Under the pieces are notes generated by a model, which worked only from the letters and a program-made list of their open reading frames with translations, searched no databases and had not been told where the DNA came from. The position numbers and the translations under genes were made by a program. From contig NZ_JAEL01000052.1 in the NCBI RefSeq assembly GCF_000518885.1, positions 1-38,883 on the forward strand: a DNA stretch of 38,883 nucleotides, given 5' to 3'. Below, in pieces: positions 11,658 to 30,678 of the stretch (the first letter of the stretch is position 1; every line of letters begins with the position of its first letter). The stretch comes from Bacillus sp. J33 (GTDB lineage Bacteria; Bacillota; Bacilli; Bacillales; Cytobacillaceae).

Positions 11658-13085
11658 TTATATGGTCTGTTCTATAGCGATTTGCGGACGCCTCTTCCCA
11701 TACCCTGTTGCCTGTTCAAAGGCCCGGCCGATTCTTAGGACTTCAAAGTCAGCTCGGTGCGCTCCAACGATCTGCAGGCCAATCGGGAGACCGTCTGCTG
11801 TAAATCCGCTCGGGACGGAGAGAGCCGGGTTTCCTGCAGCGGAAATATAATAGCAGGAACGCATCCAATCGATGTAGTTCTCCATCTTCACTCCATTGAT
11901 TTCAGTTGGATATTCGATATTTACATCAAATGGAGAAACCTGGCTGACTGGCAGAATAAGTGCGTCGTATTGTTTAAAGAATTCACCCATGCGGTTATAC
12001 AGAATTGCGCGGAGCTTCTCTGCACGGCCAATATCCTGGCCTCTTTGATTTCTCCCCTTTTCGATATTCCAGATGACACTCGGTTTAATCATTTCACGAA
12101 AGCGGTCAAAGATTTCCGAATAAGAAATCTCAAACTCCAATGCCCTAAGCACTTGGAACACCTCCTCGGCTTCCTGTAAATCCGGGCATGCTTTTTCCAC
12201 AGTGCATCCAAGATCCTCAAAGACCTTCACCTGTTCTTCGAGGTTGCTTCTTACTCCAGGCTCCACTGGAAGGATACCTCCAAAGTCAGCAGAATAGGCG
12301 ATGCGCAGCCCTTTAATAGCAGTCTTTGCTGGCTCAAGAAACTTCGCACCTGGTTCTTCAATGGAAAGCGGGGACTGCCTGTCAGGTCCTGCAATCACTG
12401 ACATCATGAAAAAGGCGTCGTCTACACTGCGAGTAATCGGACCCTGTACAGCCAGAGGCGAATAGAGCGCCGCTTTTGAAAATGGAATACGCCCAGGAGA
12501 AGTTCTCAAACCAACCACATTATTAAAGCAAGCGGGATTTCGCAAAGATCCTCCCATATCGCTTCCATCTGTAAAAGGGATCATTCCGCTTGCCACTGCA
12601 GCAGCCGCTCCCCCGCTGCTTCCGCCCGCTGTTTTGCCAAGGTCATATGGATTTCTGGTAGCACCAAACAGCTTATTGAAAGTATGAGACCCTGCTGCAA
12701 ATTCAGGAACGTTTGTTTTTCCAATCACAATAGCCCCTGCCTTACGCATCCTTGCTACAATCAGATCATCCACGCTTGGATAATGGTCCCGGAAAATCAA
12801 GGATCCGCTAGTTGCCGGAAAGCCAACAGCATTATGGGTATCCTTTATGGCAATCGGAAGCCCGTGAAAAGGGCCGGCCTGCTTCCCGGCATCCAGCATC
12901 TCATCCGCTTTGGCTGCTTCCTTTAATGCCAGTTCCTCATTAAGAGATACAATCGCATTTACCTTTGGATTAACCCGCTGGATTTGTGCCAGGTGTGCTT
13001 CCATCACCTCCCGGGCGGATAATTTACGCTCTTGAATAGACTTGGCAAGGTGACGTGCAGAAGCAAAACAAATATCTTTTTCCAT
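11658..13085 (-). CDS. Amidase signature family hydrolase
   Basis: This 475-residue cytosolic enzyme carries the Ser-cisSer-Lys triad of the amidase signature family: K81 in IAIKDT, the GGSSGG loop at 154-159, and nucleophile S180 in DMGGSLRNPA. The family hydrolyses amides to acid and ammonia, and includes allophanate hydrolase, 6-aminohexanoate dimer hydrolase and general amidases. It is the last gene of module A. A terminator-like hairpin (13121-13161) sits in the 82-bp gap before it, so it may be expressed by read-through or from its own promoter. The GGGGAG ribosome-binding site is ten bases before the ATG. The substrate cannot be told from the sequence. Confidence 0.88.
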   Translation of the reverse strand: MEKDICFASARHLAKSIQERKLSAREVMEAHLAQIQRVNPKVNAIVSLNEELALKEAAKADEMLDAGKQAGPFHGLPIAIKDTHNAVGFPATSGSLIFRDHYPSVDDLIVARMRKAGAIVIGKTNVPEFAAGSHTFNKLFGATRNPYDLGKTAGGSSGGAAAAVASGMIPFTDGSDMGGSLRNPACFNNVVGLRTSPGRIPFSKAALYSPLAVQGPITRSVDDAFFMMSVIAGPDRQSPLSIEEPGAKFLEPAKTAIKGLRIAYSADFGGILPVEPGVRSNLEEQVKVFEDLGCTVEKACPDLQEAEEVFQVLRALEFEISYSEIFDRFREMIKPSVIWNIEKGRNQRGQDIGRAEKLRAILYNRMGEFFKQYDALILPVSQVSPFDVNIEYPTEINGVKMENYIDWMRSCYYISAAGNPALSVPSGFTADGLPIGLQIVGAHRADFEVLRIGRAFEQATGYGKRRPQIAIEQTI

Positions 13086-13120
13086 TTCATAACCGCTCCC
13101 CGCTATTGATTTTTTGACTC

Positions 13121-13161
13121 AAAAAATCCCCCTCCAATTTTTCTCTAAGCTGAAGGGGAAT
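13121..13161 (-). terminator. Intra-operon terminator before the amidase gene
   Basis: On the minus strand ATTCCCCTTCA pairs with TGGAGGGGGAT across all 11 positions (two G-U) around a 14-nt loop and is followed by TTTTTT. It starts a few bases after the DUF5058 partner gene and would lower expression of the amidase. Confidence 0.75.
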
Positions 13162-13167
13162 CCGTTT

Positions 13168-13881
13168 TTACTCAGACACGCCGCTTTTTGATCTTTCGAT
13201 AAACAGAACGACTGCAATGGTAATGGCTACACACAAAACAATCTTTATCAAGCTAAAAATAGGTGCAAACAGCACACCCATGCCAATCACAAAAGCAACA
13301 AGCCCATACAAAGGCTTTTTTAGGGCAAATTGCCCCAGCACCCCTCCGTAAATGGCAGGCAGAATAAATTGAAGGGCATTTTGCACGGATTGCGGGATAA
13401 TGGTGAGGATATACGAACCGCTTAACACGACAGCAATGATAATGACAATGTTCGTTAAAGAAGCAACAGCAATTCCAAGTGTGCCCGCCACTTCTGCTTT
13501 TTTTGTACCTGGTTCAGCTCCTATTGACTCTTGGGCTGCCGCTGAACAAGGAAGGCACATATTAGCGATATTCCCGGTCAAAAAGGCGATATAGGTGCCG
13601 GATTTTCCAAGCACCGGATAATACGTGATTGGCTCAAGGAACCACATGATCCCGATAAAGGCCGCATACCCGATCAGTCCCCCTGCAATCGCTCCCCAGC
13701 CTGGATGGTAGCCTAAAATGAATGAAAAGTAGATGGGCGGCACGAACGACATGGCAATCAGCAGCCAAAGGGTGGTTTGTCCCCAAAAATCGGCCTTGCC
13801 ATGAAATCCCTGCATGCTCATGGTCGTTTGTTTTATCTCAATATTCGCTTCCGTCACTCCAGCTTTTGTCGGTACAGTCAT
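13168..13881 (-). CDS. Integral membrane protein, partner of the DUF5058-type protein
   Basis: This 237-residue protein has a polar N-terminal tail of about 32 residues, then six or seven hydrophobic segments. Its most distinctive feature is GNIANMCLPCSAAAQESIG near residues 104-122, where two cysteines three apart (CLPC) sit at a membrane boundary. I recall similar proteins beside DUF5058 genes, with no proven function. The gene follows the DUF5058 gene by 15 bp, downstream of two M20 hydrolase genes, so the two membrane proteins most likely form a transporter for the hydrolase substrate or product. The CLPC pair could bind metal or form a disulfide; that is inference. Confidence 0.72.
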   Translation of the reverse strand: MTVPTKAGVTEANIEIKQTTMSMQGFHGKADFWGQTTLWLLIAMSFVPPIYFSFILGYHPGWGAIAGGLIGYAAFIGIMWFLEPITYYPVLGKSGTYIAFLTGNIANMCLPCSAAAQESIGAEPGTKKAEVAGTLGIAVASLTNIVIIIAVVLSGSYILTIIPQSVQNALQFILPAIYGGVLGQFALKKPLYGLVAFVIGMGVLFAPIFSLIKIVLCVAITIAVVLFIERSKSGVSE

Positions 13882-13896
13882 AGTACATCCCCTTTC

Positions 13897-14604
13897 TTAA
13901 ATAAGTGTAGTAAGATAGCTAATGGTCAATGCAATGACAAGCGATATCCCAAGTGCCCATTCCTGAAGCCAGCGGATTTCCCGTTTCTTTGCAAACGTAA
14001 GAATAAGCATCATCGATACGCCGGCAGCAATGGCAGCAACCGTCTCACTATAGCCTTTTACCATTTGCTGACTGGCAAGATAAGCAAACGCACCCAGCAT
14101 CGCCGCTGTCGACACAATGGTCATCATTCTGGCATTTTTACTGACAATCTTTTTTTCCACTTTCCCCAATGATTTCGTCGCAAGAGCAGTAAAGATCAGC
14201 CAGCCTGTTCCGCCCAGGCACATGGTCCAGACGACTGTCGTAAATGCTGCCAGCCCAAAATCAGGGGAATTTAAATCTACTCCATATGCATTTGCCCCAA
14301 TTCCTGCAGCGGTCAATTCGGTTGCTGCAGAACCAATGATTCCAATTCGCATCAATGTAAACGGACCGCCAAGGACGGCAATGAGTGAAATTATGACAAT
14401 GGCAATTCCGAATGAAGGCCCTAAACTGCTGATAAAGCCTGTTCTCAAGGCTCTTTTCGTCTCATCCTTTGTCATTCCTATATTCGGAGCTGTTTGGGAT
14501 GCGATCCGGATAAATATAATGGCCTGAAAAATGACGATTGCGACTACAATGCTGGCAAATATCCAAACCGGGGTACTATTGGCAAACCTTAAAACCTCGT
14601 CCAT
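13897..14604 (-). CDS. DUF5058-type integral membrane protein
   Basis: This 235-residue protein has six or seven membrane helices. The conserved-looking loops include ASQTAPNIGMTKDETKRALRTG near residues 35-56 and the small-residue run GIIGSAATELTAAGIGANAYG near 88-108. The MDEVLRFANSTP start and overall layout fit DUF5058 as I remember it. GGAGGAGG precedes the ATG. It lies 22 bp after the M20D gene and 15 bp before its membrane partner, all under the sigma-54 promoter at 17292. A two-subunit nitrogen-compound transporter is the simplest inference. Confidence 0.75.
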   Translation of the reverse strand: MDEVLRFANSTPVWIFASIVVAIVIFQAIIFIRIASQTAPNIGMTKDETKRALRTGFISSLGPSFGIAIVIISLIAVLGGPFTLMRIGIIGSAATELTAAGIGANAYGVDLNSPDFGLAAFTTVVWTMCLGGTGWLIFTALATKSLGKVEKKIVSKNARMMTIVSTAAMLGAFAYLASQQMVKGYSETVAAIAAGVSMMLILTFAKKREIRWLQEWALGISLVIALTISYLTTLI

Positions 14605-14626
14605 ACCTATTACCTCCTCCTATTGT

Positions 14627-15841
14627 TTAATTGGATTGAACTTCAGCAGATTTGTTTTCAGCAGCGGCTTCACCTGAAAGATAATCAAACACCGCGGAAA
14701 TAAATACCTTGCCAATATCAAGCATGGAACGCTCATCAACATCAAAGCGCGGATGGTGATGCGGAAATTCCTCTATCTTTTCCGAATTTCCTCCAACAAA
14801 GAAGAAGGTGCCAGGTACTTTTTGCAGATAATAAGCAAAATCCTCCATCCCCATCTGGGCAGGCATGCGAATGACATTTTCTTCACCGAAAAGCTTCCCG
14901 GCCAGCCTTTCAATTCTTTTCGTTTCACCTGGGTGATTCTTGACAGCCGGATAGCCTCTTACATATTCATACTTTGCGGTTGCCCCTACTGCTTTACAAG
15001 TCGAATGGGCGATTTCCCCTATCAAACTTTCAATCATGCTGCGAACATCCTCATCAAACGTCCGGACCGTTCCCGTAATCCTTGCTTTGTCCGGGATGAC
15101 ATTAAATCCGGTTCCGCTATTAAAAGCGGCTACAGACACAACCGCGGTTTTAACCGGATCCACTTTTCTGGCCACAACCTGCTGCAGATTCGAAATGAGC
15201 TGACTTCCTGCTGCAATTGGATCTACTGTCAAATGCGGTGTGGCAGCATGTCCGCCTTTTCCGAAGATATTAATCTCAAATGTATCCCCCGCTGCCATGG
15301 CATCCCCTTCCCTAACGCCGACAGTGCCTGCCGGATTCGTCGACCAGACATGAGCGCCATAGATGACGTCTGCACCATCAAGACATCCGTCTTCAATCAT
15401 TGACTTGGCCCCGCCAGGAATCACTTCTTCCGCAAATTGGTGGATAAAAAGAATATTTCCCTCCAGTTGATTTTTGACCTCGGATAATGTTTTGGCTACA
15501 CCAAGAAGAGCAGCGGTATGGATATCATGGCCGCAAGCGTGCATAACCCCTGGAATGCGGGATTTATACTCTACTTCATTTTCTTCCTGGATCGGGAGGG
15601 CATCAAAGTCTGCTCGCAATGCGACCGTTTTTCCAGGCTTTCCGCCTTTCAATAATCCTGTTACACCTCGCCCGCCAACGTTCCTCCTTACCTCCAATCC
15701 TAAATCCTCAAGGAAGCTTGCTACTTTCTCAGGAGTGTTTACTTCTTGGTGTGAAAGCTCCGGATACATATGGAGGTCTCTTCTAAAACTCACCATTTCC
15801 GGATAAATCTCTTGCAATCTTTCAAAAAGCTTCTCTACCAT
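14627..15841 (-). CDS. M20D amidohydrolase (N-acyl amino acid deacylase / IAA-amino acid hydrolase type)
   Basis: This 404-residue metallopeptidase-fold enzyme has the M20D hallmarks: RRDLHMYPELSHQE at 20-33, RADFDALP at 76-83, the metal site HACGHDIHT with C103 and H105, the catalytic pair E138-E139 in HQFAEEVIPGGA, AHVWS, and the dimerisation-domain motif GKGGHAATPH. The family removes acyl or aroyl groups from amino acids or p-aminobenzoyl-glutamate. It is the second gene of module A, 91 bp after a carbamoylase-type M20 gene and followed by the DUF5058 pair. AGGAGAGG lies upstream of the ATG. The acyl group it removes cannot be predicted. Confidence 0.9.
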   Translation of the reverse strand: MVEKLFERLQEIYPEMVSFRRDLHMYPELSHQEVNTPEKVASFLEDLGLEVRRNVGGRGVTGLLKGGKPGKTVALRADFDALPIQEENEVEYKSRIPGVMHACGHDIHTAALLGVAKTLSEVKNQLEGNILFIHQFAEEVIPGGAKSMIEDGCLDGADVIYGAHVWSTNPAGTVGVREGDAMAAGDTFEINIFGKGGHAATPHLTVDPIAAGSQLISNLQQVVARKVDPVKTAVVSVAAFNSGTGFNVIPDKARITGTVRTFDEDVRSMIESLIGEIAHSTCKAVGATAKYEYVRGYPAVKNHPGETKRIERLAGKLFGEENVIRMPAQMGMEDFAYYLQKVPGTFFFVGGNSEKIEEFPHHHPRFDVDERSMLDIGKVFISAVFDYLSGEAAAENKSAEVQSN

Positions 15842-15932
15842 TCTTTGTCCCTCTCCTTTTAAAAATAATATAACTAAATATTATAAATTATCTGCAAAAT
15901 AAAAATGATCTAAAGAAAGAAAAGCAGTTAAA

Positions 15933-17192
15933 TTAGATCTTCTGCTTTTCTGTTTCTTTGCACGCCAGTTTTCTAACGACATTCAGCAATAAATCACAGC
16001 CTGCCTTAATATCTTTTATACTTGTATATTCCTCAGGGCAATGGCTTTTCCCGCCCTTGCTCGGGATGAAAAGCATACCTATATCCGTCAGCCCGCTTAA
16101 CATCGCTGTATCATGCACAGCGCCGCTATTTAATTTTAGATAATCAAATCCCTGCTCTTTTGCGGTTTCTTCAATCTGTCCGATTATGCGGGATGAAAGC
16201 TTTACAGTATCCGATTCGCCAACCAGCTCAATCGTGCTCTTTAATGAATGCTCATCTGAAACCTCTTTTACCTTTTGAGCCAGCTTACGGGATACGATCT
16301 CAACTCCTTCAGCTTCTACATCTCTTATATCTACATAGAATTCGACTATTTGAGGAATCACGTTCGGTATATTCGGCTTGCACTCTATTTTCCCGACTGT
16401 AGCCACCGTTGTCTCCAGTGCCTCATGTTTGGCTGTTTTTTGAATATGGGATATGATTTCAACAGCACCCGCCATTGGATCTGATCTTACGTTCATCGGA
16501 GTCGTCCCTGCATGATTCGAATCTCCATCAATTGTCACTTTGAACGTCTTCATTCCTGCAATAGCCTGTACAATTCCGATTGACTTCTGCTGACTTTCGA
16601 GTACCTGCCCCTGCTCAATATGAAGCTCGATCATGGCGTCTATTTCCCCTTTTTGGAGGATATCTCTTTCCATATGATCGATTTCCAGTCCAAAATCTTT
16701 AGCTGCTTCGTAAACAGATTTCCCCTCCGGGTTCTTGATCGCCTTTAATTCTTCCAACTCATATTTTCCTGCAAACACCTTGCTTCCAACCATGGTAATG
16801 CCAAAATTGGAGCCTTCCTCTTCCGCAAAGCTTACCAGTTCTATCGGCCGGCTTAATTCCGCCTCCTCTTCTTTCAACACTCTTATAATCTCAAGTGCAG
16901 CCAAAACACCGGTTAACCCGTCATATTTTCCCCCGTTTTTCACCGTATCGTGATGGGAGCCAATCATAATGGATGGTTTGTTCAAGTCTTTTCTGTATGC
17001 AGCCCGAATATTGCCGATGGCATCGACCTTTACGTCGAGCCCAAGCTCTTCCATCCGGGCAGAAAGGTATTTTCTTGCCTGCCGATCCTCCCGGCTGTAG
17101 GAGAACCTTGTACAGCCATTCCCCGGCGTACTTGTATAGCTAATGATGTTTTCAAAGTCTTTCATCATTCTCCTGAGGTTTATCTCCAACAC
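15933..17192 (-). CDS. M20 carbamoylase-type amidohydrolase (N-carbamoyl amino acid / allantoate hydrolase family), module A
   Basis: The protein is 419 residues. The two-metal site is complete: GSHHDTV (H80, D82), the bridging aspartate in GGKYDG (D91), the EEEG acidic cluster at 124-127, LHIEQG near 189-194 and a C-terminal SHCPEE histidine. This group (HyuC, AllC, beta-ureidopropionase) hydrolyses ureido or related C-N bonds and releases ammonia and CO2. It is first in a five-gene minus-strand operon that begins at a sigma-54 promoter, with its activator gene transcribed divergently. The homologue at 27822-29069 has the same role as lead gene of module B. ATG 17192 is preferred (AAAGGGGATC upstream); an internal ATG at 17168 would cut into the first helix. 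Confidence 0.9.
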   Translation of the reverse strand: MLEINLRRMMKDFENIISYTSTPGNGCTRFSYSREDRQARKYLSARMEELGLDVKVDAIGNIRAAYRKDLNKPSIMIGSHHDTVKNGGKYDGLTGVLAALEIIRVLKEEEAELSRPIELVSFAEEEGSNFGITMVGSKVFAGKYELEELKAIKNPEGKSVYEAAKDFGLEIDHMERDILQKGEIDAMIELHIEQGQVLESQQKSIGIVQAIAGMKTFKVTIDGDSNHAGTTPMNVRSDPMAGAVEIISHIQKTAKHEALETTVATVGKIECKPNIPNVIPQIVEFYVDIRDVEAEGVEIVSRKLAQKVKEVSDEHSLKSTIELVGESDTVKLSSRIIGQIEETAKEQGFDYLKLNSGAVHDTAMLSGLTDIGMLFIPSKGGKSHCPEEYTSIKDIKAGCDLLLNVVRKLACKETEKQKI

Positions 17193-17291
17193 ATGATCCC
17201 CTTTCTATTAAAATGACTTTTCTCCCTAGTAATGACATGAATGCAATGATATAATTTTTAGAAAATTTTAAATGGTTATTTAACTTTATAT

Positions 17292-17308
17292 TGCAAGAAG
17301 CATGCCAA
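17292..17308 (-). promoter_or_regulatory. Sigma-54 promoter of module A
   Basis: Read on the minus strand, TTGGCATGCTTCTTGCA fits the -24/-12 consensus TGGCAC-N5-TTGCW with one mismatch and correct spacing. Transcription would start near 17281, about 90 bases before the carbamoylase start codon. A sigma-54 activator gene begins 102 bp away on the other strand. Confidence 0.85.
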
Positions 17309-17345
17309 CTTAGTTTCATTGTGTTTATAGGTCTTTGCTTTTGTT

Positions 17346-17386
17346 TTTGATGAAAATATTCATCAAAACCGATGAAATTGATCATC
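17346..17386. promoter_or_regulatory. Two dyads upstream of the module A sigma-54 promoter (probable activator sites)
   Basis: TTTGATGAA and TTCATCAAA flank four central bases (17346-17367), and GATGA and TCATC flank six (17371-17386). Both share the half-site GATGA. They lie about 40-80 bp upstream of the -24 element, where enhancer-binding proteins act, and end 23 bp before the activator gene, so they could also serve autoregulation. Confidence 0.7.
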
Positions 17387-17409
17387 ACTCAAAATAAGCG
17401 GGGGTTTTT

Positions 17410-18804
17410 ATGGAAAATAATCAGCTGGAAACATATAAGCAAGCATTTGAAGATTTAAATTTTATTTTGGACCTAACCCATAGCGCCATCACCATCACAA
17501 ATGGCGAAGGAGTTTTTACCAGAATCAGCAAGTCCTGCGAGAGTATATTTGGAGTCCCGGAATCTGAGATTATCGGAAAAAGTGCCTTTTTGCTGGAAAA
17601 GCAAGGTTTTTTCAGCACATCTGTCACCTGCGAAGTAATCCGCAAGAAAAAAAGGGTCACCATTATACAGAAAACAGCTGCCAATAAAACGGTCCTGGTA
17701 ACCGGCACCCCATTTTTTAATAAGGAAAAAAAGATCGAGAAGATTATCAATATCTCAAAGGACATCACGGAAACGAATAAGCTGGCATCTGACCTTAAAA
17801 GGCTTCAGGCAGAACATGAATGGCTGAAACAGGAATTAATGAAGCGTACACGGCTGGAACGCGGCAAGATTGCCTCTGAAAGCCAGGATATGAAAAGAAT
17901 CATTGAACTGGTTCATCATATTGCTGATATGGACGCCACCGTATTATTGCTCGGAGAAACCGGAGTCGGGAAAGGATATATGGCGGATATGATCCATTCC
18001 GTCAGCAAACGCAAGGACCAGCCCTTTATTTCCATAAACTGTGGGGCTATTCCTGAAAATCTGCTGGAATCGGAGCTATTCGGCTATGAAAAAGGGGCAT
18101 TCACAGGAGCACTAAAGGAAGGGAAAAAGGGGTTGTTTGAAACAGCCGGCAATGGAACCATTTTTTTGGATGAAATTGGCGATATGCCTGTAAGCCTGCA
18201 GGTAAAGCTTTTACACGTTCTCGATGACCGTACCGTCAGAAGAATAGGCGGATCAGCAGCTTTTAAAGTAAACTGCCGAATCATCGCAGCCACCAATAAG
18301 GATATTAAAGACCTTGTAAAGGCTGGCAAATTCCGTGAGGATCTCTTTTACCGGCTGAACGTTGTACCCATTACCATCCCTGCTTTAAGGGAACGCAAAG
18401 AGGATCTGTTACTTCTCGCCAACATGTTCCTGGAAAACATGAATGAAAAATATAGGATGAAAAAGACATTTTCCGACGAAGCCATCAGAGTCCTATATGA
18501 CTACGACTACCCTGGGAATATAAGAGAGCTGCAAAATATGATCGAAAGACTGGTCATCCATACAATCGGGGACACCATCGAAGCCGAAAAAATCCGCGAA
18601 ATAATCGAACCTTCACGCGCAAACACCCATAGCGAAGAAATCATTCCCCTAAAAGAAGCCGTAGAACAATTAGAAAAGAAATTGCTGCGGGCTGCTTTCC
18701 AAAAATATAGAACAACAAGAAGAGTGGCCAAAGCTTTAGAAATTGACCAATCTACGGTTGTGAAGAAAGCGAAGAAACTTAAAATGGAAGTGCATAGGCG
18801 ATAG
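17410..18804 (+). CDS. Sigma-54-dependent PAS-AAA+ activator, module A
   Basis: The protein is 464 residues. An N-terminal PAS domain (about 10-125, ending IINISKDITE) should sense a small ligand. A short linker helix leads to the AAA+ domain with Walker A GETGVGKG (182-189), the sigma-54-contacting GAFTGA loop (229-234) and Walker B TIFLDEIGD (250-258). The C terminus is a Fis/TyrR-type helix-turn-helix (about 435-460: RRVAKALEIDQSTVVKKAKK). GAFTGA is intact, so it should activate sigma-54 promoters. The gene is divergent from the module A operon, whose -24/-12 promoter and dyads lie between them. The only ribosome-binding site is a weak GGGGG. Confidence 0.93.
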   Translation: MENNQLETYKQAFEDLNFILDLTHSAITITNGEGVFTRISKSCESIFGVPESEIIGKSAFLLEKQGFFSTSVTCEVIRKKKRVTIIQKTAANKTVLVTGTPFFNKEKKIEKIINISKDITETNKLASDLKRLQAEHEWLKQELMKRTRLERGKIASESQDMKRIIELVHHIADMDATVLLLGETGVGKGYMADMIHSVSKRKDQPFISINCGAIPENLLESELFGYEKGAFTGALKEGKKGLFETAGNGTIFLDEIGDMPVSLQVKLLHVLDDRTVRRIGGSAAFKVNCRIIAATNKDIKDLVKAGKFREDLFYRLNVVPITIPALRERKEDLLLLANMFLENMNEKYRMKKTFSDEAIRVLYDYDYPGNIRELQNMIERLVIHTIGDTIEAEKIREIIEPSRANTHSEEIIPLKEAVEQLEKKLLRAAFQKYRTTRRVAKALEIDQSTVVKKAKKLKMEVHRR

Positions 18805-18816
18805 AGCGCCATAAGT

Positions 18817-18848: not shown

Positions 18849-18884
18849 GACTGTTAGGATTAAATCCTTAACCTCTCAGATTCA

Positions 18885-18897: not shown

Positions 18898-18913
18898 AAA
18901 TTAAAAGGCATGC

Positions 18914-23059: not shown

Positions 23060-23081
23060 AGAAATCTATCCAAAAATAAAA

Positions 23082-23169: not shown

Positions 23170-23305
23170 TCAATTGTTATTATTAATCACCAATGTCATT
23201 TCATCAATAGCGTACTTGATGCCTTCGCGGCCGGCGCCGCTTTCTTTGACACCGCCGTAAGGCATGTGGTCAATGCGGAAGGTTTTCCTAGCCTCCCCGT
23301 TTCAA
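23170..23305 (-). pseudogene. 3' remnant of an aldehyde dehydrogenase gene
   Basis: On the minus strand one frame reads [20 protein letters not shown] and then [18 protein letters not shown] before a TGA stop. This is the canonical ALDH C terminus, with the PYGGVKxSGxGREG motif. Upstream the frame meets a stop within a few codons, so about 40 codons of a roughly 480-codon gene remain and the nucleophile-cysteine domain is gone. The stump begins right after the terminator of the omega-aminotransferase gene on the same strand. An aminotransferase followed by a semialdehyde dehydrogenase is a common pair, so module B probably once ended with a dehydrogenase that was deleted. Confidence 0.85.
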
Positions 23306-23310
23306 TAATA

Positions 23311-23335
23311 AGAAGAGTGCCTTACACACTCTTCT
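23311..23335 (-). terminator. Terminator of the module B operon
   Basis: AGAAGAGTG and CACTCTTCT pair around a 7-nt loop. On the minus strand TATTATT follows. It is 13 bases after the aminotransferase stop codon. Confidence 0.7.
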
Positions 23336-23347
23336 CTGCCAATACCC

Positions 23348-24652
23348 TTATATACTTTGCTCCACCGCAAAAATGGAATCGTGGAGGATCTCTGTAAGAC
23401 TGCCAATCTCCTGCTTGTTAATGGTCAGCGGCGGGGCAAAGACGAGAATGTCCATGCCATCAAAGATCACCGAGCGGCAAATAAGCCCTCGTTTAGCAGC
23501 TTCATTTACAACCGCTGGCGCAAACTGCCCCTTCGCACTCTTAAGCTCGACAGCCCCGATTAATCCTAGTCCTCTTACATCTGATACAAGCTCCCGTTCA
23601 CCCTGAATCCATTTAAAGCCCTTCAGCAATTCCTCTCCCATTTTTCTAGAGTTTTCTATCAAGTTCTCATTCTCAATAATTTCAATATTCTTCAGTCCTA
23701 CCGCACAAGCCATCGGATGTCCGCTGTATGTGTAGCCATGCAGAAGGGTTCCGGCTGAAAGCTCCTTAAAATCCTCATGAATCCGCTTGGATAATACCAC
23801 CCCGCCAAGCTGGGCATAGCCGCTTGTGACACCCTTGGCAAAGCACATCATATCCGGTGCCACACCATAATGCTCAATTCCGAATGCTTTCCCTGTACGG
23901 CCAAAGCCCGTAATGACTTCATCTGTAATAAACAAAATATCAAACTCGCTGCAAATCTTGCGCACTTCCTGAAAATAACCGTCAGGAGCAATATGGACAC
24001 CGCCAGCACCCTGAACCGGCTCTGCGACAAAGGCTGCAATGGTCTCTGAGCCCTCTGATTCAATGGTTTTCCGCAACGCTTCAGCAGACAGGTTTTCCGT
24101 AAAGTAAAAATCCGGTGCCAGCGAATTTGTGAAATCCCGAAATGGCTTAAGTCCTGTGGCACTGGTCGCGCCCATCGCGACCCCATGATAGGATTTTTTC
24201 CGGGATATGATTTTCTTTTTGGAAGGCTGGCCCTTTAAAATCCAATAATGCCTTGCGAGCTTATATGCTGTATCATTCGCTTCCGACCCGCCGGAGGTGA
24301 AGAAGGTTGCACTTAAATCACCAGGCGTGATCTCAGCCATTTTCGCCGCCAGCCGAATGGCTGGCTCATTGCTGAAGGTGGCAAAGCAGGAGCTGAACGC
24401 CAGCTGGTTCATCTGCTCCATTGCCGCCTGCCCCAGCTCTTTTCTGCCGTGCCCCACGTTCACATTCCATAGGGAGGACATCCCGTCAATCACCCGGCTG
24501 CCCCTCACATCCTCAAGATATACACCCTCGCCTTTAGTAAAAATAAAGGCCGGACCCTGTTCCTGCTGCTGCTGAATCGGAGAAGTCGGATGCAGAAAAT
24601 GGTTTTTATCCAGCTCTGCCAATTCCTGATATAAAGCTGCTGTCTTGCTCAT
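23348..24652 (-). CDS. Class III aminotransferase (omega-amino acid:pyruvate type)
   Basis: The protein is 434 residues from ATG 24652 (MSKTAALYQ); an upstream ATG at 24658 has worse spacing from GGGGAG. PLP-fold landmarks: SSLWNVNVGHG at about 61-71, FTSGGSEAND for phosphate binding, SYHGVAMGATSATG, the aspartate in FITDEVITGFGRTG, and the PLP lysine in MCFAKGVTSGYAQLGGV. The family moves the terminal amino group of beta-alanine, GABA, putrescine or similar omega-amines to pyruvate or oxoglutarate, giving a semialdehyde. It is last in the module B operon, 12 bases after the symporter stop codon region, and is followed by an aldehyde dehydrogenase stump. With a carbamoylase at the head of the operon, beta-alanine-like amines are attractive substrates, but that is inference. 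Confidence 0.9.
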   Translation of the reverse strand: MSKTAALYQELAELDKNHFLHPTSPIQQQQEQGPAFIFTKGEGVYLEDVRGSRVIDGMSSLWNVNVGHGRKELGQAAMEQMNQLAFSSCFATFSNEPAIRLAAKMAEITPGDLSATFFTSGGSEANDTAYKLARHYWILKGQPSKKKIISRKKSYHGVAMGATSATGLKPFRDFTNSLAPDFYFTENLSAEALRKTIESEGSETIAAFVAEPVQGAGGVHIAPDGYFQEVRKICSEFDILFITDEVITGFGRTGKAFGIEHYGVAPDMMCFAKGVTSGYAQLGGVVLSKRIHEDFKELSAGTLLHGYTYSGHPMACAVGLKNIEIIENENLIENSRKMGEELLKGFKWIQGERELVSDVRGLGLIGAVELKSAKGQFAPAVVNEAAKRGLICRSVIFDGMDILVFAPPLTINKQEIGSLTEILHDSIFAVEQSI

Positions 24653-24694
24653 TTGCATTCTCCCCTTATTATAAAATGTCAATATAATGAAGAT

Positions 24695-26287
24695 TTATAT
24701 TCCCAGCCTGACGATAAAATAACCCCAAAGAACGACGGAAATCACAACAAATGAAACGGCAACCGCTAACGTTTGCCTGTATTCCCGTTTCAATTCGGCT
24801 GCTCCATTATGTTTGGCCAAAATCTTTTGGATTGTTGCAGCAGAAAGCCTGGTTTCTTTAATCTTCTGGTAATAGCCCAGCTCATAATCGGTCGGTTTGG
24901 CTATAAACCCGACGATAAGCAAGGTAAGCACAGATACAATAATGGCCAGGTAGAAATGATCAAATCCAACCGGGAAGGTAATCATTTCATACCGTTTCAA
25001 TTCACCGAACACGATAAATGTAATGATCCCTGCAAGCATGCTTGCTGTTGCAGCTTTACTGCTCATCCGCTTCCATTCGAGGCTTCCAATGATTGTCGGC
25101 ATCCAGGAAACCGCAAAGATAGATCCGGCATAAATGGAAATCCAGAAGATCGATGAAGGCTGAAGAATGGCGATGATGCAAACAACCACAGCGACTAAAG
25201 CCTGGGCACTGCGTCCAATAAACATACTTTTCTTATCATCAAAATCTTTATGGAGGACGTTTTCAAATAAGTCTTTCGCCAATGCAAATCCAATTAGGAC
25301 AAATAGCGTGGAGGCAGTCGACATAATGGATGCCATCAATCCTGCCAAACCAATTCCAGCCAAAGCAGGCGGCGTATAGTCCATCATTCCAACGATAAAC
25401 ACGCGGTCAGCCGGCTCAATGCCAGGCTGAAGCACCATCATGGCAGTTGCAGCAATAAAGACTAGCAATTGCATAAATGGAGCAAAGAAGACCCCAATAA
25501 CAGCAGTCTTTAGGATGACAAAGTCATTTTTCGCCGGGAATACCCGGGATACAAGGGATGGGGTGCACCCGAAGAAAAGGATCCACATTAAAAATTGTGA
25601 AAACACCCAGCCAAACGGACGGTCAGCTCCGCCATTGATGCCATAATAGCCCGGGATCACTTCCCCCAGGTTTTTGATCTGGTCCAGGCCGGCCTGTCCA
25701 ATAATGAGCGGGGAAATCACAATCGCAATCGCCAGCATCGTGAAGAACATCAGCGTATCAGTAATCACAACTCCATACATGCCGCCCATTGCACTAAAAA
25801 TGAACAGGGCTAAAGTAAATAATAGAATTAAGACAGGGAACGGAATATTTAACAATTCAGATAGGATGACACCTGCTCCGATTAATTGAACCACTCCATA
25901 TCCCAGCAATCCGATAATCATAATGGACGTAGCAATGACAGTAACCCATTTGTTTCGGAACCGTTTTTCAAAAAAGTCCGGAAGCGTCTGGCAATCCAAT
26001 GCCTTTAATTTTCTTCCTACATAAATAACAGCAAATAATGTCCCTAACCATGCCCCATATGAACCTAACCCTGCATGGGCAACAGGTCCTTCGTTGTAAA
26101 TCATCCCTGCAATCCCAAGCAGCGTGACCGCACTTAAATACGTAGCTGCCAATGTACCCACAATTAATAAAGTAGAACCCTTTTCACCCATAACGTAGAA
26201 ATCATCTTTGTTTTTTACATATCTGGTTACGAAAATTCCGGCGATTACATAGACTGCAACAACGATAAAAAATACCGTTTTCTCCAT
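24695..26287 (-). CDS. Sodium:solute symporter (SSS family)
   Basis: This 530-residue membrane protein has about 13 helices. The conserved SSS segments are present: FYVMGEKGSTLLIVGTLAATYLSAVTLLGIAG in TM1-2, YGAWLGTLFAVIYVGRKLKAL, the TLPDFFEKRF loop, MGGMYGVVITDTLMFF and AGLMASIMSTASTLFVLIG around TM8. These transporters bring in solutes such as pantothenate, proline, urea or carboxylates with Na+. Its ribosome-binding site AAGGAGG lies in the last codons of the 58-residue membrane peptide gene, and the two genes are one base apart. It presumably imports the module B substrate. Confidence 0.92.
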   Translation of the reverse strand: MEKTVFFIVVAVYVIAGIFVTRYVKNKDDFYVMGEKGSTLLIVGTLAATYLSAVTLLGIAGMIYNEGPVAHAGLGSYGAWLGTLFAVIYVGRKLKALDCQTLPDFFEKRFRNKWVTVIATSIMIIGLLGYGVVQLIGAGVILSELLNIPFPVLILLFTLALFIFSAMGGMYGVVITDTLMFFTMLAIAIVISPLIIGQAGLDQIKNLGEVIPGYYGINGGADRPFGWVFSQFLMWILFFGCTPSLVSRVFPAKNDFVILKTAVIGVFFAPFMQLLVFIAATAMMVLQPGIEPADRVFIVGMMDYTPPALAGIGLAGLMASIMSTASTLFVLIGFALAKDLFENVLHKDFDDKKSMFIGRSAQALVAVVVCIIAILQPSSIFWISIYAGSIFAVSWMPTIIGSLEWKRMSSKAATASMLAGIITFIVFGELKRYEMITFPVGFDHFYLAIIVSVLTLLIVGFIAKPTDYELGYYQKIKETRLSAATIQKILAKHNGAAELKREYRQTLAVAVSFVVISVVLWGYFIVRLGI

Positions 26288-26288
26288 C

Positions 26289-26465
26289 CTAGACCTCCTT
26301 CGTTATGCTCTCATGAATCGGATTTGCCGGAGACGCATCTTTCTCTTCCTCCAGCTTTTTAATCGTTGGCAAATACTCTTTCTTTAAGATCCACACCACA
26401 ATTCCAGCTGAAATGACTGTCGTCGCAATCGCGTTTCCGAATAATAACCATAATCCTGGATTCAT
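26289..26465 (-). CDS. 58-residue single-span membrane peptide, companion of the SSS symporter
   Basis: This short gene reads MNPGLWLLFGNAIATTVISA, then GIVVWILKKEYLPTIKKLEE, then a charged tail ending ITKEV. It has one membrane helix (residues about 5-27) and a charged, probably cytoplasmic helix behind it. The stop codon is one base before the symporter start, and the symporter ribosome-binding site is inside its last codons, so the two are tightly coupled. Several SSS and related carriers have small companion subunits of this type, such as YhdT with PanF. A stabilising or regulatory subunit is the likely role. Its own ribosome-binding site is a weak GGGGG. Confidence 0.8.
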   Translation of the reverse strand: MNPGLWLLFGNAIATTVISAGIVVWILKKEYLPTIKKLEEEKDASPANPIHESITKEV

Positions 26466-26522
26466 TTTCTATAGCCCCCATTTAATGGCGGAGAAAGGGC
26501 AGCAGTCCCTTCCGCTCAAATT

Positions 26523-27818
26523 TTATTCTTTATACTGGCACCACTTTAATAGAAAAGCTGCATACGTTTTCGTGACTCTTTTGACACTATCCAGGTCCAC
26601 CCATTCATCAGGGGCATGCAGGTTTGCGCCAGTTGGCCCATAGCAGGTGGAAGGGATATTGTAATAGAGATTATAAAACCTGGCATCCGTTGTCCCTGTA
26701 AAAGCAGCATGTTTTAAATCGCTTTTCTCAATTATCCGATGTGCTTCCTCAAGGGTATGGATAAACTCCTGGTCCGGATCAAGTGTAAATCCTTCCGCAT
26801 GAAATCCGTAAAAGCTGATTTCCGGCGGATTCTCTTTCAGCCACTCATCCTTCTTGGCCGCTTCCAGCAGGAATTCCTGCACTTCCCTCTTCACATCTGC
26901 CGGGTCTAATCCTGGATTAAAGCCCACCCTTGCTTCAACAATACATTCCGATGGAACCGTCGAAGGCCAGTCGCCAGAGTGGATTTTCCCGATATTGATA
27001 TTCTGGGGATGAGGGTGATCGCCAAAAATCTTATGCTTTGAACGACTATTAATCTCTTTCTCGTAGTCTTGAAGGGCTTCTATCATTTTATAGGCTTTCA
27101 CAATTGCATTGACCGCTTTGTCCGCCCTTTCCGTATGGGCACCAAGCCCTGCAACCTTGATGCGGACCCAAATGACCCCTACCTGCCCTGCTAGTGCCTG
27201 CTGTCCCAGGGGCTCCGGGATAAGGGCTGCATCTGCCCTGTATCCGGCTTCGATGGCAGCGAGTGCCCCGTTGCCTGTACACTCTTCTTCTGTAACGGTT
27301 TTAATCGTTACATCATTGGAAAGTTCTACTCCAGCCTGCTGAACAGCCTTAAGTGCATAGATCATGGCCGTAACCCCTGATTTCATATCCGCAATGCCGC
27401 GGCCATACATTTTATTGCCGACAATTTCAGACCCCCATGGATCATAGCTCCATTTCGACACCGGCTCAGGGCTGACCACATCTATATGACCTTGAAAAAT
27501 TATGCTTTTTCCCTTTTTCTCTCCCTTTGCTTCATACTTCCCTACCACGACAGGGCGGTTGTCATAAGACCATTCGGCCTTGGAATATCCGGGATGAGCT
27601 CCCAGCTTCTCCGGATCAGGAATAATTTTTTCAACCTTCAATTTCAAATCCTTTTCAAGGGATTCAGCCAGATAATCCTGAATCGCCGCTTCATTCCCCA
27701 GTGTGGACGGATAACGCCCAAGCTTCTGCAAATAGGAAACTTCCTCCTGCCATAAAGCATCCACTTGTTCAAAGACTTTATCGATGACATCCTTTTGCAC
27801 TTTTTCCAACTTAAACAC
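26523..27818 (-). CDS. M20 ArgE/DapE-type deacylase
   Basis: This 431-residue zinc hydrolase carries the ArgE/DapE motifs: FQGHIDVV with H111 and D113, YGRGIADMKSG with bridging D144, TEEECTGNG with the catalytic and metal glutamates near 178-179, GLGAHTERAD in the lid domain and a C-terminal HAPDEWV histidine. The family removes N-acyl groups from amino acids (acetylornithine, succinyl-diaminopimelate, formyl or other amides). It is second in module B, three bases after the carbamoylase stop, and starts with GTG, so translation is probably coupled. Here it is more likely catabolic than part of arginine or lysine synthesis. Confidence 0.9.
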   Translation of the reverse strand: MFKLEKVQKDVIDKVFEQVDALWQEEVSYLQKLGRYPSTLGNEAAIQDYLAESLEKDLKLKVEKIIPDPEKLGAHPGYSKAEWSYDNRPVVVGKYEAKGEKKGKSIIFQGHIDVVSPEPVSKWSYDPWGSEIVGNKMYGRGIADMKSGVTAMIYALKAVQQAGVELSNDVTIKTVTEEECTGNGALAAIEAGYRADAALIPEPLGQQALAGQVGVIWVRIKVAGLGAHTERADKAVNAIVKAYKMIEALQDYEKEINSRSKHKIFGDHPHPQNINIGKIHSGDWPSTVPSECIVEARVGFNPGLDPADVKREVQEFLLEAAKKDEWLKENPPEISFYGFHAEGFTLDPDQEFIHTLEEAHRIIEKSDLKHAAFTGTTDARFYNLYYNIPSTCYGPTGANLHAPDEWVDLDSVKRVTKTYAAFLLKWCQYKE

Positions 27819-27821
27819 CCC

Positions 27822-29069
27822 TTATAAAGTTTCTTTGTTCGCCAAGGCCAGAACTGTTTCAAATAAAACCTGTACGCCCTTTTCAATATCTGAAGCTTTG
27901 CTGAATTCTTCCTCACAGTGGCTGAGCCCGCTGATGCTCGGTATAAAGAGCATAGCTGCCGGTGTGATCCAATTTAAATACTTAGCATCATGGCCGGCTC
28001 CGCTCAGCATTCTCATATAAGAAAAACCATGCTTTTCGGCTGCGCCTTCCATTGCCTCAATTATTTCTTTCGAAAAGAAGTCAGTATCGATTTTGTCGAG
28101 GTCCTTTATCTGCAGCTCCATTTCATCCACTAATGTCATGGTGCTTAATGATTCCTTCAGCAGCTTCTCAAAACGTTCCCGTACATGGTCTTCCGGATGT
28201 CGAATATCAATCGAGAAGACCGCCTGATCTGCCACTGTATTGATGACATTCGGAGACACCTGAATCCTGCCAACAGCTACCAGCAAATCCGGAATCTCCT
28301 CTGCCAAAGCGTAAATTTCCGCGATAAGCTTTGAAGCGAGTAAAACGGCATCCTTTCTCCTATTCATCGGTGTTGTCCCCGTATGGGACGTCCTTCCGGT
28401 AATCGATGCCTCCAGCCAGGTCATCCCTTGAATGCCTGTTACGACTCCGATCGATTTCCCCTTATCCTCAAGGACCGGTCCCTGTTCAATATGCAGCTCA
28501 AGGAAACAGAAAGGAGCCTGCTGGCGATTTTGCTTTAACCCTTTGTAGCCAATGCGCTCCAGCTCTTCTCCGAATATGACTCCCTTTTGATCCTTCGCAT
28601 TCAGGATGGTATGTTTGTTAAAGACCTCAGCCATCGCGCCTGACCCGAGCATGGCCGGCTGAAACCTGGCCCCTTCCTCATTCGTAAAGTTAACAATCTC
28701 TATAGGTCTTTCCGTTTCAATTCCAAGATCATTTAAAGTACGGATCACCTCTAGAGCTCCAAGCACCCCCAGCACGCCATCATACTTTCCGCCTTTTGGC
28801 TGTGTATCCAGATGGGAACCCGCTAATACCGGAGCAAGTTCATCGTTTTTTCCTTTCCGCCGGCCATACATATTGCCAAAGTCATCAATCCTTGTTTCCA
28901 ATCCGCAATCCTTCATCCACTGAAGGAATAGGTCTCTCATTCTCTTATCCTCGTCCGTCAATGAAAGCCTGCAGATCCCCCCATTCGGCAGCCTGCCAAT
29001 CTCAGCGCTTTGCCGGATCGTTTCCATTAAACGATCCAATTTAATATTTTTTACTTGCTGTGTCACCAT
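27822..29069 (-). CDS. M20 carbamoylase-type amidohydrolase, module B
   Basis: The protein is 415 residues, homologous to the lead enzyme of module A. Metal motifs: AGSHLDTQ with H86 and D88, GGKYDG with D97, NEEGARF with E131-E132, LHIEQGPVLE, the HTGTTPMNRR substrate loop, and the C-terminal GLSHCEEEF histidine. N-carbamoyl amino acid hydrolases, beta-ureidopropionases and allantoate hydrolases share this architecture. It opens the module B operon: the sigma-54 promoter is 28 bp before the ATG, and AAGGGAG lies in the very short leader. If the omega-aminotransferase works on its product, N-carbamoyl-beta-alanine would be a fitting substrate, but no uracil- or dihydrouracil-degrading enzyme is in view. 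Confidence 0.9.
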   Translation of the reverse strand: MVTQQVKNIKLDRLMETIRQSAEIGRLPNGGICRLSLTDEDKRMRDLFLQWMKDCGLETRIDDFGNMYGRRKGKNDELAPVLAGSHLDTQPKGGKYDGVLGVLGALEVIRTLNDLGIETERPIEIVNFTNEEGARFQPAMLGSGAMAEVFNKHTILNAKDQKGVIFGEELERIGYKGLKQNRQQAPFCFLELHIEQGPVLEDKGKSIGVVTGIQGMTWLEASITGRTSHTGTTPMNRRKDAVLLASKLIAEIYALAEEIPDLLVAVGRIQVSPNVINTVADQAVFSIDIRHPEDHVRERFEKLLKESLSTMTLVDEMELQIKDLDKIDTDFFSKEIIEAMEGAAEKHGFSYMRMLSGAGHDAKYLNWITPAAMLFIPSISGLSHCEEEFSKASDIEKGVQVLFETVLALANKETL

Positions 29070-29096
29070 ATTCGCTCCCTTCTTGCCTATTCTTTT

Positions 29097-29113
29097 TGCA
29101 AATATCGTGCCAA
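29097..29113 (-). promoter_or_regulatory. Sigma-54 promoter of module B
   Basis: Read on the minus strand, TTGGCACGATATTTGCA matches TTGGCAC-N5-TTGCA exactly, with consensus spacing. Transcription should begin near 29087, leaving a leader of under 20 bases that holds just the ribosome-binding site AAGGGAG of the carbamoylase gene. Confidence 0.92.
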
Positions 29114-29205
29114 TTTAATAGGTTCATTTAGGCGGTTTTTGCTAGGTTTTATTGTGAATTTTTAGAATTTTTACTATAATTGTTTTTAAAAGCGATTCAC
29201 ATGAG

Positions 29206-29259
29206 TTGATTTCGATTCGCCTCTATCAAAGGATTTGGATAAAAATGAATCGAAATCAA
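29206..29259. promoter_or_regulatory. Perfect 13-bp inverted repeat, probable activator sites of module B
   Basis: TTGATTTCGATTC (29206-29218) is repeated in inverted form as GAATCGAAATCAA (29247-29259), 28 bp apart. The arms lie about 95-145 bp upstream of the -24 element, a normal place for enhancer-binding-protein sites, and directly before the activator gene. Each arm could be one half-site of a looped dimer or a complete asymmetric site. Confidence 0.75.
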
Positions 29260-29277
29260 TTCAGAAAGGAGGACTTT

Positions 29278-30678
29278 ATGGAGGAGCTAATGAAACTGGC
29301 CAATCAGCGCCCAAATTTTTTTACAGATATATTGAATTCTATTAATGATGCCATTTATATTACGGATAAAAACGGAGTTACGTTATGGATCAATCATATA
29401 AGTGAAATGATGACTCAGTTCCCAAGAGAAAAACTGATTGGAAGAAATGTGAGAGATTTGGAAAGAGAAAAGGTATTTTCTCCTTCTGTTACGAGGCTTG
29501 CAGCTGAAGCCAGCAGCAATGTCAGCACCGTTCAGGAAATGAGGGACGGCAGGAAGTATATCGCCACCGGCCATCTTGTGAAAGATGAAAATGGAGAAGT
29601 GATTGCGATCGTGGCCCATTGCCGGGATATTACGGAAGCTGTTAAAACATCGTCAAGGCTTAGAGAAACAGAAGAACTTTTGGAAAAATACAGCCAGGAA
29701 CTTCGAAAGTTAAAAATCCCCTCCCAGCTCAACGGTAATCCCTCAAAAAAAGAATTGATCCTGCACCCTTCAACAGAGGAAATGATCGGAAAAATAGCGA
29801 ATGTCGACACCACCGCTTTAATCACCGGTGAAACAGGAACAGGAAAAAGTGCAACAGCAGAAAGGATTCATTTACTTAGTAACCGCCACAAACACTCTTT
29901 CGTCCAAATAAACTGCGCTTCCATGCCGGAGCAGCTGCTTGAATCAGAGCTTTTCGGCTACAAAAAGGGAGCTTTTACAGGGGCAAGCACCTCTGGCAAA
30001 CAAGGATTAATCCAGGCTGCAGAAGGCGGAACATTATTTTTAGACGAGATTGGCGAGCTTCCTCCCCATCTCCAGGCAAAGCTATTGCATTTTCTGCAAA
30101 CCAAAACCTACATGCCAATCGGTGGACGTGAATATGTACAGGCAAACGTCCGGATCATTGCCGCAACGAACCGAAATCTTGAAAAAATGACCGAAGAAGG
30201 TTCCTTCCGCTCTGATTTATACTACCGCCTGCACATTCTATCTATCAAACTCCCCCCGCTCAGAGAACGAAAGGAAGTCATCGAGGACCTATCATTCTAC
30301 TTTTTAAAGCAGTATAACGAGAAATACAACGTTAAAAAGCACTTCTCTTCCAAAGTACTGGATATCTTTTATGCGTACCACTGGCCAGGAAACATCAGGG
30401 AGCTTGAAAACCTAATGGAACGGCTGGTAATCCTATGTGACGACACGATTGAGGAAAAAGATCTGCCTCAAAAAATGATGGAAAACCAGCAGCTTCCTCA
30501 ATATATGAAACAATTGAATCAATTGGACAGCATGCCTGAACTGCTGGAAAGCATTGAAAGGAATATGATTATAGAGGCTTTAAAGAAGGAGAAATCGACA
30601 AGGAAGGCTGCACAGCAGCTCGGGGTCACCCAATCCCTTTTGATGAGACGGGTACGAAAATATGGAATTCAATTATAA
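29278..30678 (+). CDS. Sigma-54-dependent PAS-AAA+ activator, module B
   Basis: The protein is 466 residues from ATG 29278 (MEELMKLAN), chosen because AAAGGAGG is five bases upstream; a longer reading would cover the inverted-repeat sites. A PAS domain (about 12-120, IYITDKNGVTLWINHISEMM... ending HCRDITEAVK) is followed by a linker and an AAA+ domain with Walker A GETGTGKS (184-191), GAFTGA (231-236) and Walker B GTLFLDEIGE (251-260). The C-terminal helix-turn-helix is STRKAAQQLGVTQSLLMRRV. It is clearly homologous to the activator at 17410-18804, but the recognition helices differ, as do the putative sites, so the two probably control separate modules. Confidence 0.93.
   Translation: MEELMKLANQRPNFFTDILNSINDAIYITDKNGVTLWINHISEMMTQFPREKLIGRNVRDLEREKVFSPSVTRLAAEASSNVSTVQEMRDGRKYIATGHLVKDENGEVIAIVAHCRDITEAVKTSSRLRETEELLEKYSQELRKLKIPSQLNGNPSKKELILHPSTEEMIGKIANVDTTALITGETGTGKSATAERIHLLSNRHKHSFVQINCASMPEQLLESELFGYKKGAFTGASTSGKQGLIQAAEGGTLFLDEIGELPPHLQAKLLHFLQTKTYMPIGGREYVQANVRIIAATNRNLEKMTEEGSFRSDLYYRLHILSIKLPPLRERKEVIEDLSFYFLKQYNEKYNVKKHFSSKVLDIFYAYHWPGNIRELENLMERLVILCDDTIEEKDLPQKMMENQQLPQYMKQLNQLDSMPELLESIERNMIIEALKKEKSTRKAAQQLGVTQSLLMRRVRKYGIQL

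Follow-up and report, generated by a model that had tools for sequence, protein, structure and literature searches.

Here we describe a stretch of 38,883 bases from the genome of Bacillus sp. J33 (the window), in which two groups of genes, module A at 11658-18804 and module B at 23170-30678, each combine the gene of a sigma-54 activator with a divergent operon that starts with an M20 amidohydrolase of the hydantoinase/carbamoylase family. The genome measures 5.56 Mb and has one sigma-54 gene; judged by the DUF5058 gene of module A, its nearest relatives among titled genome records are strains of Cytobacillus oceanisediminis. We read A and B, with a probability of about 0.6, as two independently inherited sigma-54 catabolic regulons that lie side by side, of which A would carry an importer pair and B would serve blocked omega-amino acids. 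The features of the two modules are as follows (aa, amino acids; nt, nucleotides).

Module A
11658..13085, minus strand: amidase-signature amidase, PRK07486 subfamily (Pfam Amidase 345 bits; NF005686 527.7 against a cut-off of 465)
13168..13881, minus strand: MEM2, membrane protein of an unnamed family and partner of DUF5058, without Pfam or NCBIfam match
13897..14604, minus strand: DUF5058 membrane protein (PF16481 243.7 bits against a cut-off of 28.2)
14627..15841, minus strand: M20D amidohydrolase, aminoacylase/carboxypeptidase-like (TIGR01891 402.6 bits against a cut-off of 153.75)
15933..17192, minus strand: M20 hydantoinase/carbamoylase-family amidohydrolase, first gene of the operon (TIGR01879 415 against 204)
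17250..17255, plus strand: TATAAT (TGN-TATAAT), likely housekeeping -10 element of the activator gene (5/6 aligned loci)
17293..17307, minus strand: sigma-54 -24/-12 promoter, TGGCATGCTTCTTGC, about 100 nt before the carbamoylase start
17348..17365, no strand: putative activator-site dyad 1, TGATGA-N6-TCATCA, from the alignment
17370..17387, no strand: putative activator-site dyad 2, 22 bp from dyad 1, from the alignment
17410..18804, plus strand: sigma-54 activator with PAS, AAA+ and C-terminal HTH domains

Module B
23170..23285, minus strand: aldehyde dehydrogenase relic, the last ~40 codons (82-85% by tblastn over 40 aa; flanks meeting at ~23285 in blastn)
23348..24682, minus strand: class-III omega-aminotransferase (Aminotran_3 341.6 bits; nearest solved structure 6fyq, an amine transaminase)
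24695..26287, minus strand: sodium:solute symporter, SSF family (PF00474 118.7 bits)
26289..26465, minus strand: single-pass membrane peptide of 58 aa, with orthologs in L076 (84%) and L079 (51%)
26523..27818, minus strand: M20 deacylase of the ArgE/DapE family (NF005306 543.9 against 376; TIGR01910 305 against 217.6)
27822..29069, minus strand: M20 hydantoinase/carbamoylase-family amidohydrolase, first gene of the operon (TIGR01879 410 against 204)
29098..29112, minus strand: sigma-54 -24/-12 promoter, TGGCACGATATTTGC, about 28 nt before the carbamoylase start
29152..29180, plus strand: TTGTGA-17-TATAAT, likely housekeeping promoter of the activator gene (TATAAT in 5/6 aligned loci)
29202..29219, no strand: putative activator-site dyad 1, TGARTYGATTTCGATTCR, from the alignment
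29246..29263, no strand: putative activator-site dyad 2, 44 bp from dyad 1, from the alignment
29278..30678, plus strand: sigma-54 activator with PAS, AAA+ and HTH domains, 466 aa, its ATG at 29278 preceded by AGGAGG

Control and linkage of the two modules

Both activators keep a Walker A motif (GETGVGK in A, GETGTGK in B) and an intact GAFTGA loop, and they match the sigma-54 interaction domain PF00158 with 234.5 and 217.7 bits, respectively; scores of 423 and 375 bits leave them below the PrdR equivalog NF041552 (795). A first-pass annotation had posited a single plan for the two modules, with a PAS-AAA+ activator bearing GAFTGA, a divergent -24/-12 promoter, dyads between them and an M20 carbamoylase in the lead, and the genes, families and motifs of that plan are found in each. 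Its gene lists need some amendment. In A, the M20D enzyme and the amidase stand, whereas of the supposed DUF5058 pair only 13897..14604 encodes a DUF5058 protein. The list for B holds, except that position 23170, where the module ends, belongs to the stop codon of the aldehyde dehydrogenase relic, which had been left out.

A strict -24/-12 pattern occurs exactly twice in the window, once ahead of each operon (mononucleotide-shuffle mean 0.38, maximum 2, in 50 shuffles). Because a loose form of the pattern finds 36 sites against 37.6 expected, which is chance level, the evidence for these promoters rests on position and conservation. When the window was aligned with five A orthologs, and likewise with five B orthologs, the element was retained in 6/6 A loci and 6/6 B loci, window included, at 100-104 nt (A) or 24-53 nt (B) from the called carbamoylase start. 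The dyads are discernible by eye in the aligned orthologs, with substitutions in the more distant rows; their patterns were read from the sequence itself, and shuffle counts for them are descriptive only. The activator of B most likely begins at the ATG at 29278, a TTG at 29206 being the mechanical start, which places both B dyads between the genes. The TATAAT elements suggest that the two activator genes are transcribed from housekeeping promoters; the promoter of gabR in Bacillus thuringiensis (Bt) is itself described as not sigma-54 dependent (PMC4279683).

In the circuit that we propose, a housekeeping promoter would supply each module with its one-component activator, whose PAS domain may sense a substrate or product, as judged by analogy with Bt GabR, a PAS activator induced by gamma-aminobutyric acid (GABA; PMC4279683). 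The activator would sit on both dyads ahead of the divergent operon and open the sigma-54 promoter by means of its GAFTGA loop and AAA+ ATPase. Sigma-54-dependent control of both operons, as the first-pass annotation had it, is favoured by the conserved promoters and paired dyads. Its suggestion that the modules catabolize amide-type compounds is in line with the enzyme families, and we infer that both probably scavenge nitrogen.

Linkage was surveyed in 151 genomes of the family, the window's own included, with the ten best candidates scored per genome and orthology set at an identity of at least 60%. The A activator has five other orthologs in this set and the B activator six, and the hydrolase genes were found to stay with them, contrary to the neighbourhood outcome that the first-pass annotation had named as refuting it. 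The carbamoylase and M20D genes are adjacent to the A activator in 5/5 cases, and the set is complete in four. Beside the B orthologs, the carbamoylase and ArgE/DapE genes occur in 6/6, the symporter in four, and the aminotransferase together with an intact aldehyde dehydrogenase in two; at L078, an MFS permease takes the place of the symporter. The sixth B ortholog, L080, weighs against so regular a picture: its carbamoylase and ArgE genes are differently arranged, and no strict -24/-12 site was found near them in this rearranged locus, which lies outside the alignment.

Adjoining module A, at 8586-11259 of the window, is codBA (cytosine permease and deaminase), which has no strict -24/-12 site of its own and is adjacent to module A in the four complete loci as well (4/4, all of the same genus).

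The DUF5058-MEM2 pair

The best reading of DUF5058 and MEM2, in our view, is that they are the two subunits of an importer for amide or N-acyl compounds. In module A they would take up amino compounds in N-acyl, N-carbamoyl or amide form, to be cut in the cytoplasm by the amidase and by the M20D and carbamoylase-family enzymes, with release of free amino acid and ammonia. The M20D enzyme scores 415.9 against the CpsA equivalog cut-off of 500 and was left at family level. MEM2 is unrelated to DUF5058 by profile comparison (hhalign probability 0.7%), and its family, assembled to 75 members, gives only two Pfam matches, weak and different from each other (E 0.002 and 0.009).

The two proteins are nonetheless close companions. 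In a sample of 299 genomes from the phylum, DUF5058 exceeds its cut-off in 23, this genome included, and MEM2 adjoins it at all 22 other loci. We also assembled the best 80 of 99 loci from a DUF5058-alignment search of titled genome records, which by their titles span Bacillota, Synergistota, Spirochaetes and haloarchaea, and here MEM2 is next to DUF5058 in 79/80, the exception ending at a contig edge. A same-strand M20 gene is adjacent to the pair in 66/80 of these loci, compared with 2/367 for control genes taken from these loci but not from the cassette. Where no M20 gene is adjacent (14/80), the neighbours are of the isochorismatase family in three, of the AAT family in three, an M19 dipeptidase with an amidohydrolase in three (Pfam having been run on one of them) and a divergent amidase in one; three loci end at contig edges, and L193 has nothing there. 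In the phylum sample, M20 genes lie beside the pair in 17/22 loci, and two more have an M42 or an amidohydrolase gene there (one each). The common denominator of these neighbours thus seems to be the bond that is cut, not one enzyme family.

Signs of sigma-54 control recur in other genera. A -24/-12 site precedes the DUF5058-MEM2 operon in Clostridioides difficile (L201, 3681-3695) and in Clostridium (L196, 4053-4067), in both cases with a sigma-54 activator upstream, and each locus has 1 site against shuffle means of 0.03 and 0.07.

Some features of the pair would also suit a role other than transport, in which it anchors the hydrolases at the membrane or regulates them: the subunits are small, no transport family is assigned to them, and there is no useful fold match, the AlphaFold model of DUF5058 (pLDDT 86.4) finding no PDB entry at E 0.001 or better. 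We consider this unlikely, although its probability is not negligible. The adjacent hydrolases come from several families, a diversity that points to a common type of substrate more than to a common binding partner, and Pfam and NCBIfam scans of the module A operon find no recognised transporter other than the pair.

Several observations do weigh against the importer reading. The 80-locus set holds many metagenome-assembled records and some near-copies, and the patterns used to fetch it came from ten mostly M20-associated rows, so that the 66/80 adjacency is biased upward. Some of the 17 M20 neighbours in the phylum sample were recognised by weak profile scores only, and the remaining loci have a PGA_cap-type gene (L142), an opposite-strand gene of molybdate-transporter type (L134) and, at L112, where only one neighbour was scanned, a LysR regulator. 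The isochorismatase, AAT and other neighbour families are here taken to be mostly amide-cleaving. Other bacilli carry A-type genes at eleven loci (L150, L152, L154-L162), and the stretches examined there contain no sigma-54 activator. And neighbours of one type are no proof that the membrane pair transports.

On the broadest form of the importer reading, DUF5058 and MEM2 would be obligate subunits of an undescribed importer class for amide-linked nitrogen (N-acyl, N-carbamoyl, peptide-like) that works with several hydrolase families and has sigma-54 sites and an activator in Cytobacillus, Clostridioides and Clostridium, the three genera seen; joined to the possibility, considered below, that relatives of module B break down agmatine via 4-ureidobutyrate, this proposal stands a little short of an even chance. 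If true, it would describe a new type of importer, two small proteins kept together from bacilli to haloarchaea beside various amide-cutting enzymes, and its wider value would lie in proposing what DUF5058 and the as yet unnamed family of MEM2 do in the membrane. Among open-licence articles in PubMed Central (PMC) we found none on DUF5058 and none on the M20 neighbourhood.

Two side observations concern such membrane proteins. At L129, the DUF5058 gene (6977-7675) is split by an in-frame TGA, and MEM2 and M20D genes are adjacent. In the window itself, 516-5894 contains a pair of small membrane proteins, one of them DUF3100 and its partner without a Pfam match, together with dehydrogenases of hydroxyisobutyrate and ketoglutarate-semialdehyde type, both below their cut-offs; a gene of 533 aa beside this pair has no NCBIfam match and looks PucR-like by eye.

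Possible substrates of module B

In module B, blocked omega-amino acids would enter through the SSF symporter and lose their N-acyl or N-carbamoyl cap to the carbamoylase-family enzyme and the ArgE/DapE deacylase. The omega-aminotransferase would then transfer the amine, and the resulting semialdehyde would be oxidised by an aldehyde dehydrogenase that two relatives keep and the window has lost. The symporter scores 139 bits with the sodium/pantothenate symporter PanF (TIGR02119), whose cut-off is 328. Orthologs of the aminotransferase are 434 aa long, and an internal ATG is its likelier start. Relative to L075 and L076, ~1.3 kb is gone 3' of the aminotransferase gene, which removes all of the dehydrogenase but the relic, and a pathway drawn from the window alone would lack this enzyme. 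Fourteen aldehyde dehydrogenase matches are found in the genome, with the window contributing one, and the closest is 62% identical to the ortholog of the lost protein; the lost step may therefore be covered elsewhere in the genome.

The lead enzymes say little about their substrates. The structure nearest to that of A is 3n5f, an N-carbamoyl-L-amino acid hydrolase, and the best solved matches of B are 4wjb, 5thw and 5i4m, then 8apz and 8c46, with 1r3n also found. Both enzymes retain the metal ligands and the H, N and R residues that we take to form the carboxylate site of the family. These three residues are kept in 21/21 aligned carbamoylase-family rows and are therefore useless for telling substrates apart. 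Scores with ErtE, the N-carbamyl-L-glutamate amidohydrolase (NF058540), are 396.2 and 366.5 bits against 520. The term carbamoylase should accordingly be read as a family name for both enzymes and not as a substrate.

A more specific indication for B comes from relatives. At three loci, L081, L082 and L084 (genomes G143, G050 and G116), an activator 46% identical to that of B stands amid three strict -24/-12 sites, which precede, respectively, a carbamoylase-aminotransferase-dehydrogenase operon, an agmatine deiminase gene and a second aminotransferase gene, the last with a dehydrogenase gene next to it where the stretch reaches. This second aminotransferase is 78-80% identical to that of B, and the dehydrogenase of L081 and L082 shares 76-80% identity with its counterparts in L075 and L076, the orthologs of the gene lost from the window. 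The agmatine deiminase of L081 exceeds its equivalog cut-off, and among eight genomes searched the enzyme occurs in exactly the three that carry these loci; the window's genome has no match to it. In the same eight genomes neither AguB nor putrescine carbamoyltransferase was found above cut-off, and the AguB-like match of the window's genome reaches 336.5 of the 410.25 bits required. Matches to TIGR04384 of ~330-350 bits, below cut-off, occur in 8/8 genomes and are presumably ornithine carbamoyltransferases.

The M20 enzyme of the agmatine loci could thus supply the step for which AguB is lacking. Since the residues of the presumed carboxylate site are kept, 4-ureidobutyrate seems a likelier M20 substrate than N-carbamoylputrescine, and in these relatives of B N-carbamoylputrescine may be oxidised first, after which the M20 enzyme would free GABA from 4-ureidobutyrate. 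The loci would then suggest a route of six enzymes in which an M20 hydrolase stands in for AguB; a search of open-licence PMC texts centred on N-carbamoylputrescine found no article, and one centred on 4-ureidobutyrate listed three. Because the aminotransferase of B and the dehydrogenase of its relatives closely resemble the pair in the agmatine-deiminase loci, GABA derivatives are our best single guess for what module B uncaps, with about one chance in three of being right. Against this guess, the agmatine-locus activator is only 46% identical to that of B, and the aminotransferase and dehydrogenase accompany only 2/6 of the other B orthologs, so that the core substrate may be something other than an omega-amino acid.

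Class-III aminotransferases also include beta-alanine enzymes, and the lead enzyme of B matches 8c46, an N-carbamoyl-beta-alanine amidohydrolase, and 1r3n, a beta-alanine synthase of yeast type. With a cytosine permease and deaminase in the window, B might then be a module for pyrimidine nitrogen that converts N-carbamoyl-beta-alanine to beta-alanine and on to malonate semialdehyde. We think this rather unlikely, slightly more so than a membrane anchor in A, in view of the neighbourhoods: codBA tracks module A and is shown by 0/6 of the B-ortholog stretches. Moreover, NCBIfam does not place the methylmalonate-semialdehyde family among the 25 best matches to the dehydrogenase of the relatives, and a search confined to the two modules found no match to the dihydropyrimidine dehydrogenase or dihydropyrimidinase families.

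Relationship of the modules and comparison with known systems

The first-pass annotation had seen in A and B a duplicated regulatory chassis loaded with different pathways. The activators and the lead enzymes are indeed homologous (38% and 36% identical between the modules) and share the divergent layout, as expected if a unit of activator and carbamoylase had been duplicated and the copies had then gained different genes. The closer comparisons speak against this history. Of 22 matches to the activator domain in the genome, 18 score above 200 bits, and when each activator is ranked against its 17 paralogs, that of B is sixth by score for A and that of A fifth for B, so the two are not mutual nearest relatives. 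Each lead enzyme scores higher with other, solved enzymes than with that of the other module, the scores being from different programs. The dyads of the two modules differ, and among the 151 family genomes none other than the window's own has orthologs of both activators.

Phylogenetic tests are less one-sided. In the activator tree, the A orthologs and the B orthologs fall in separate clades, and a grouping of the A orthologs with the wider clade of B is not rejected (p-AU 0.178, approximately unbiased test); a version that left that wider clade outside the group gave p-AU 0.0001 and is an unfair test. For the carbamoylases, the outcome turns on row L135, which comes from another family of the phylum: a single clade is mildly rejected with L135 outside (p-AU 0.0335), while with L135 inside the clades come together against four paralogs of the same genome, with an unstarred support of 70.6. 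An ancient shared ancestor of the two activators is therefore not rejected. Duplication of a whole unit nevertheless appears improbable to us, and the simplest reading is that A and B are two independently inherited units of a common bacterial kind. They would look alike because an activator facing its operon is one usual layout, being among the three described for sigma-54 activators of Bt HD73, of which the co-directional one is the commonest (PMC4428206).

A role in purine nitrogen, with lead enzymes that act as allantoate amidohydrolases, as the names of the NCBIfam subfamilies whose cut-offs they pass would have it (NF006771 for A and B, NF006769 for B), is highly improbable for the two modules, the AllC equivalog TIGR03176 being far off at 302 and 278 bits against 597.75 and the allantoinase gene of the genome adjoining another carbamoylase-family gene (C33).

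Among known systems, the lead enzymes of A and B resemble the N-carbamoyl-L-amino acid and N-carbamoyl-beta-alanine amidohydrolases of solved structure (3n5f, 8apz, 8c46, 1r3n) in their M20 family and in their metal and substrate-site residues. For the membrane pair, a parallel is AbgT with AbgA/B, which takes up and cleaves p-aminobenzoyl-glutamate and likewise has its transporter beside M20 hydrolases; AbgT is a single large protein, unlike the two small, unrelated proteins of module A. The genome itself has an AbgT-family transporter (L235, G000 C124) clustered with several M20-type genes, one of them of the carbamoylase family.

In regulation, the GabR/gab cluster of Bt HD73 is similar to both modules, with a one-component PAS-AAA+-HTH activator, a sigma-54 promoter and an upstream repeat, which has been footprinted in Bt; it resembles B further in its omega-amino acid aminotransferase and semialdehyde dehydrogenase, and it differs from both in having no hydrolases in the cluster as described (PMC4279683). 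The likeness to GabR is drawn from its published description. The RocR, PrdR, KamR, SoxR and BkdR regulons of the same strain also have PAS activators beside sigma-54 operons for amino acid catabolism, with the same -24/-12 consensus and, for RocR and PrdR, a promoter in opposite orientation; they serve other substrates, and the tables of that study contain no DUF5058 or carbamoylase operon (PMC4428206). The AguQ regulon of Clostridium, in which a sigma-54 activator governs agmatine genes, parallels the three agmatine loci; its reported targets are aguDA, aguBC and aguQT, whereas those loci instead have an M20 enzyme and no AguB above cut-off (PMC6615313). Among the 8 of 75 open-licence PMC articles listed for this genus, none links Cytobacillus with sigma-54. 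The regulatory arrangement of A and B is thus ordinary and adds two well-supported regulons, in Cytobacillus, to a known class; the novelty lies in DUF5058 with its partner MEM2 and in the agmatine loci of relatives, each with three sigma-54 promoters.

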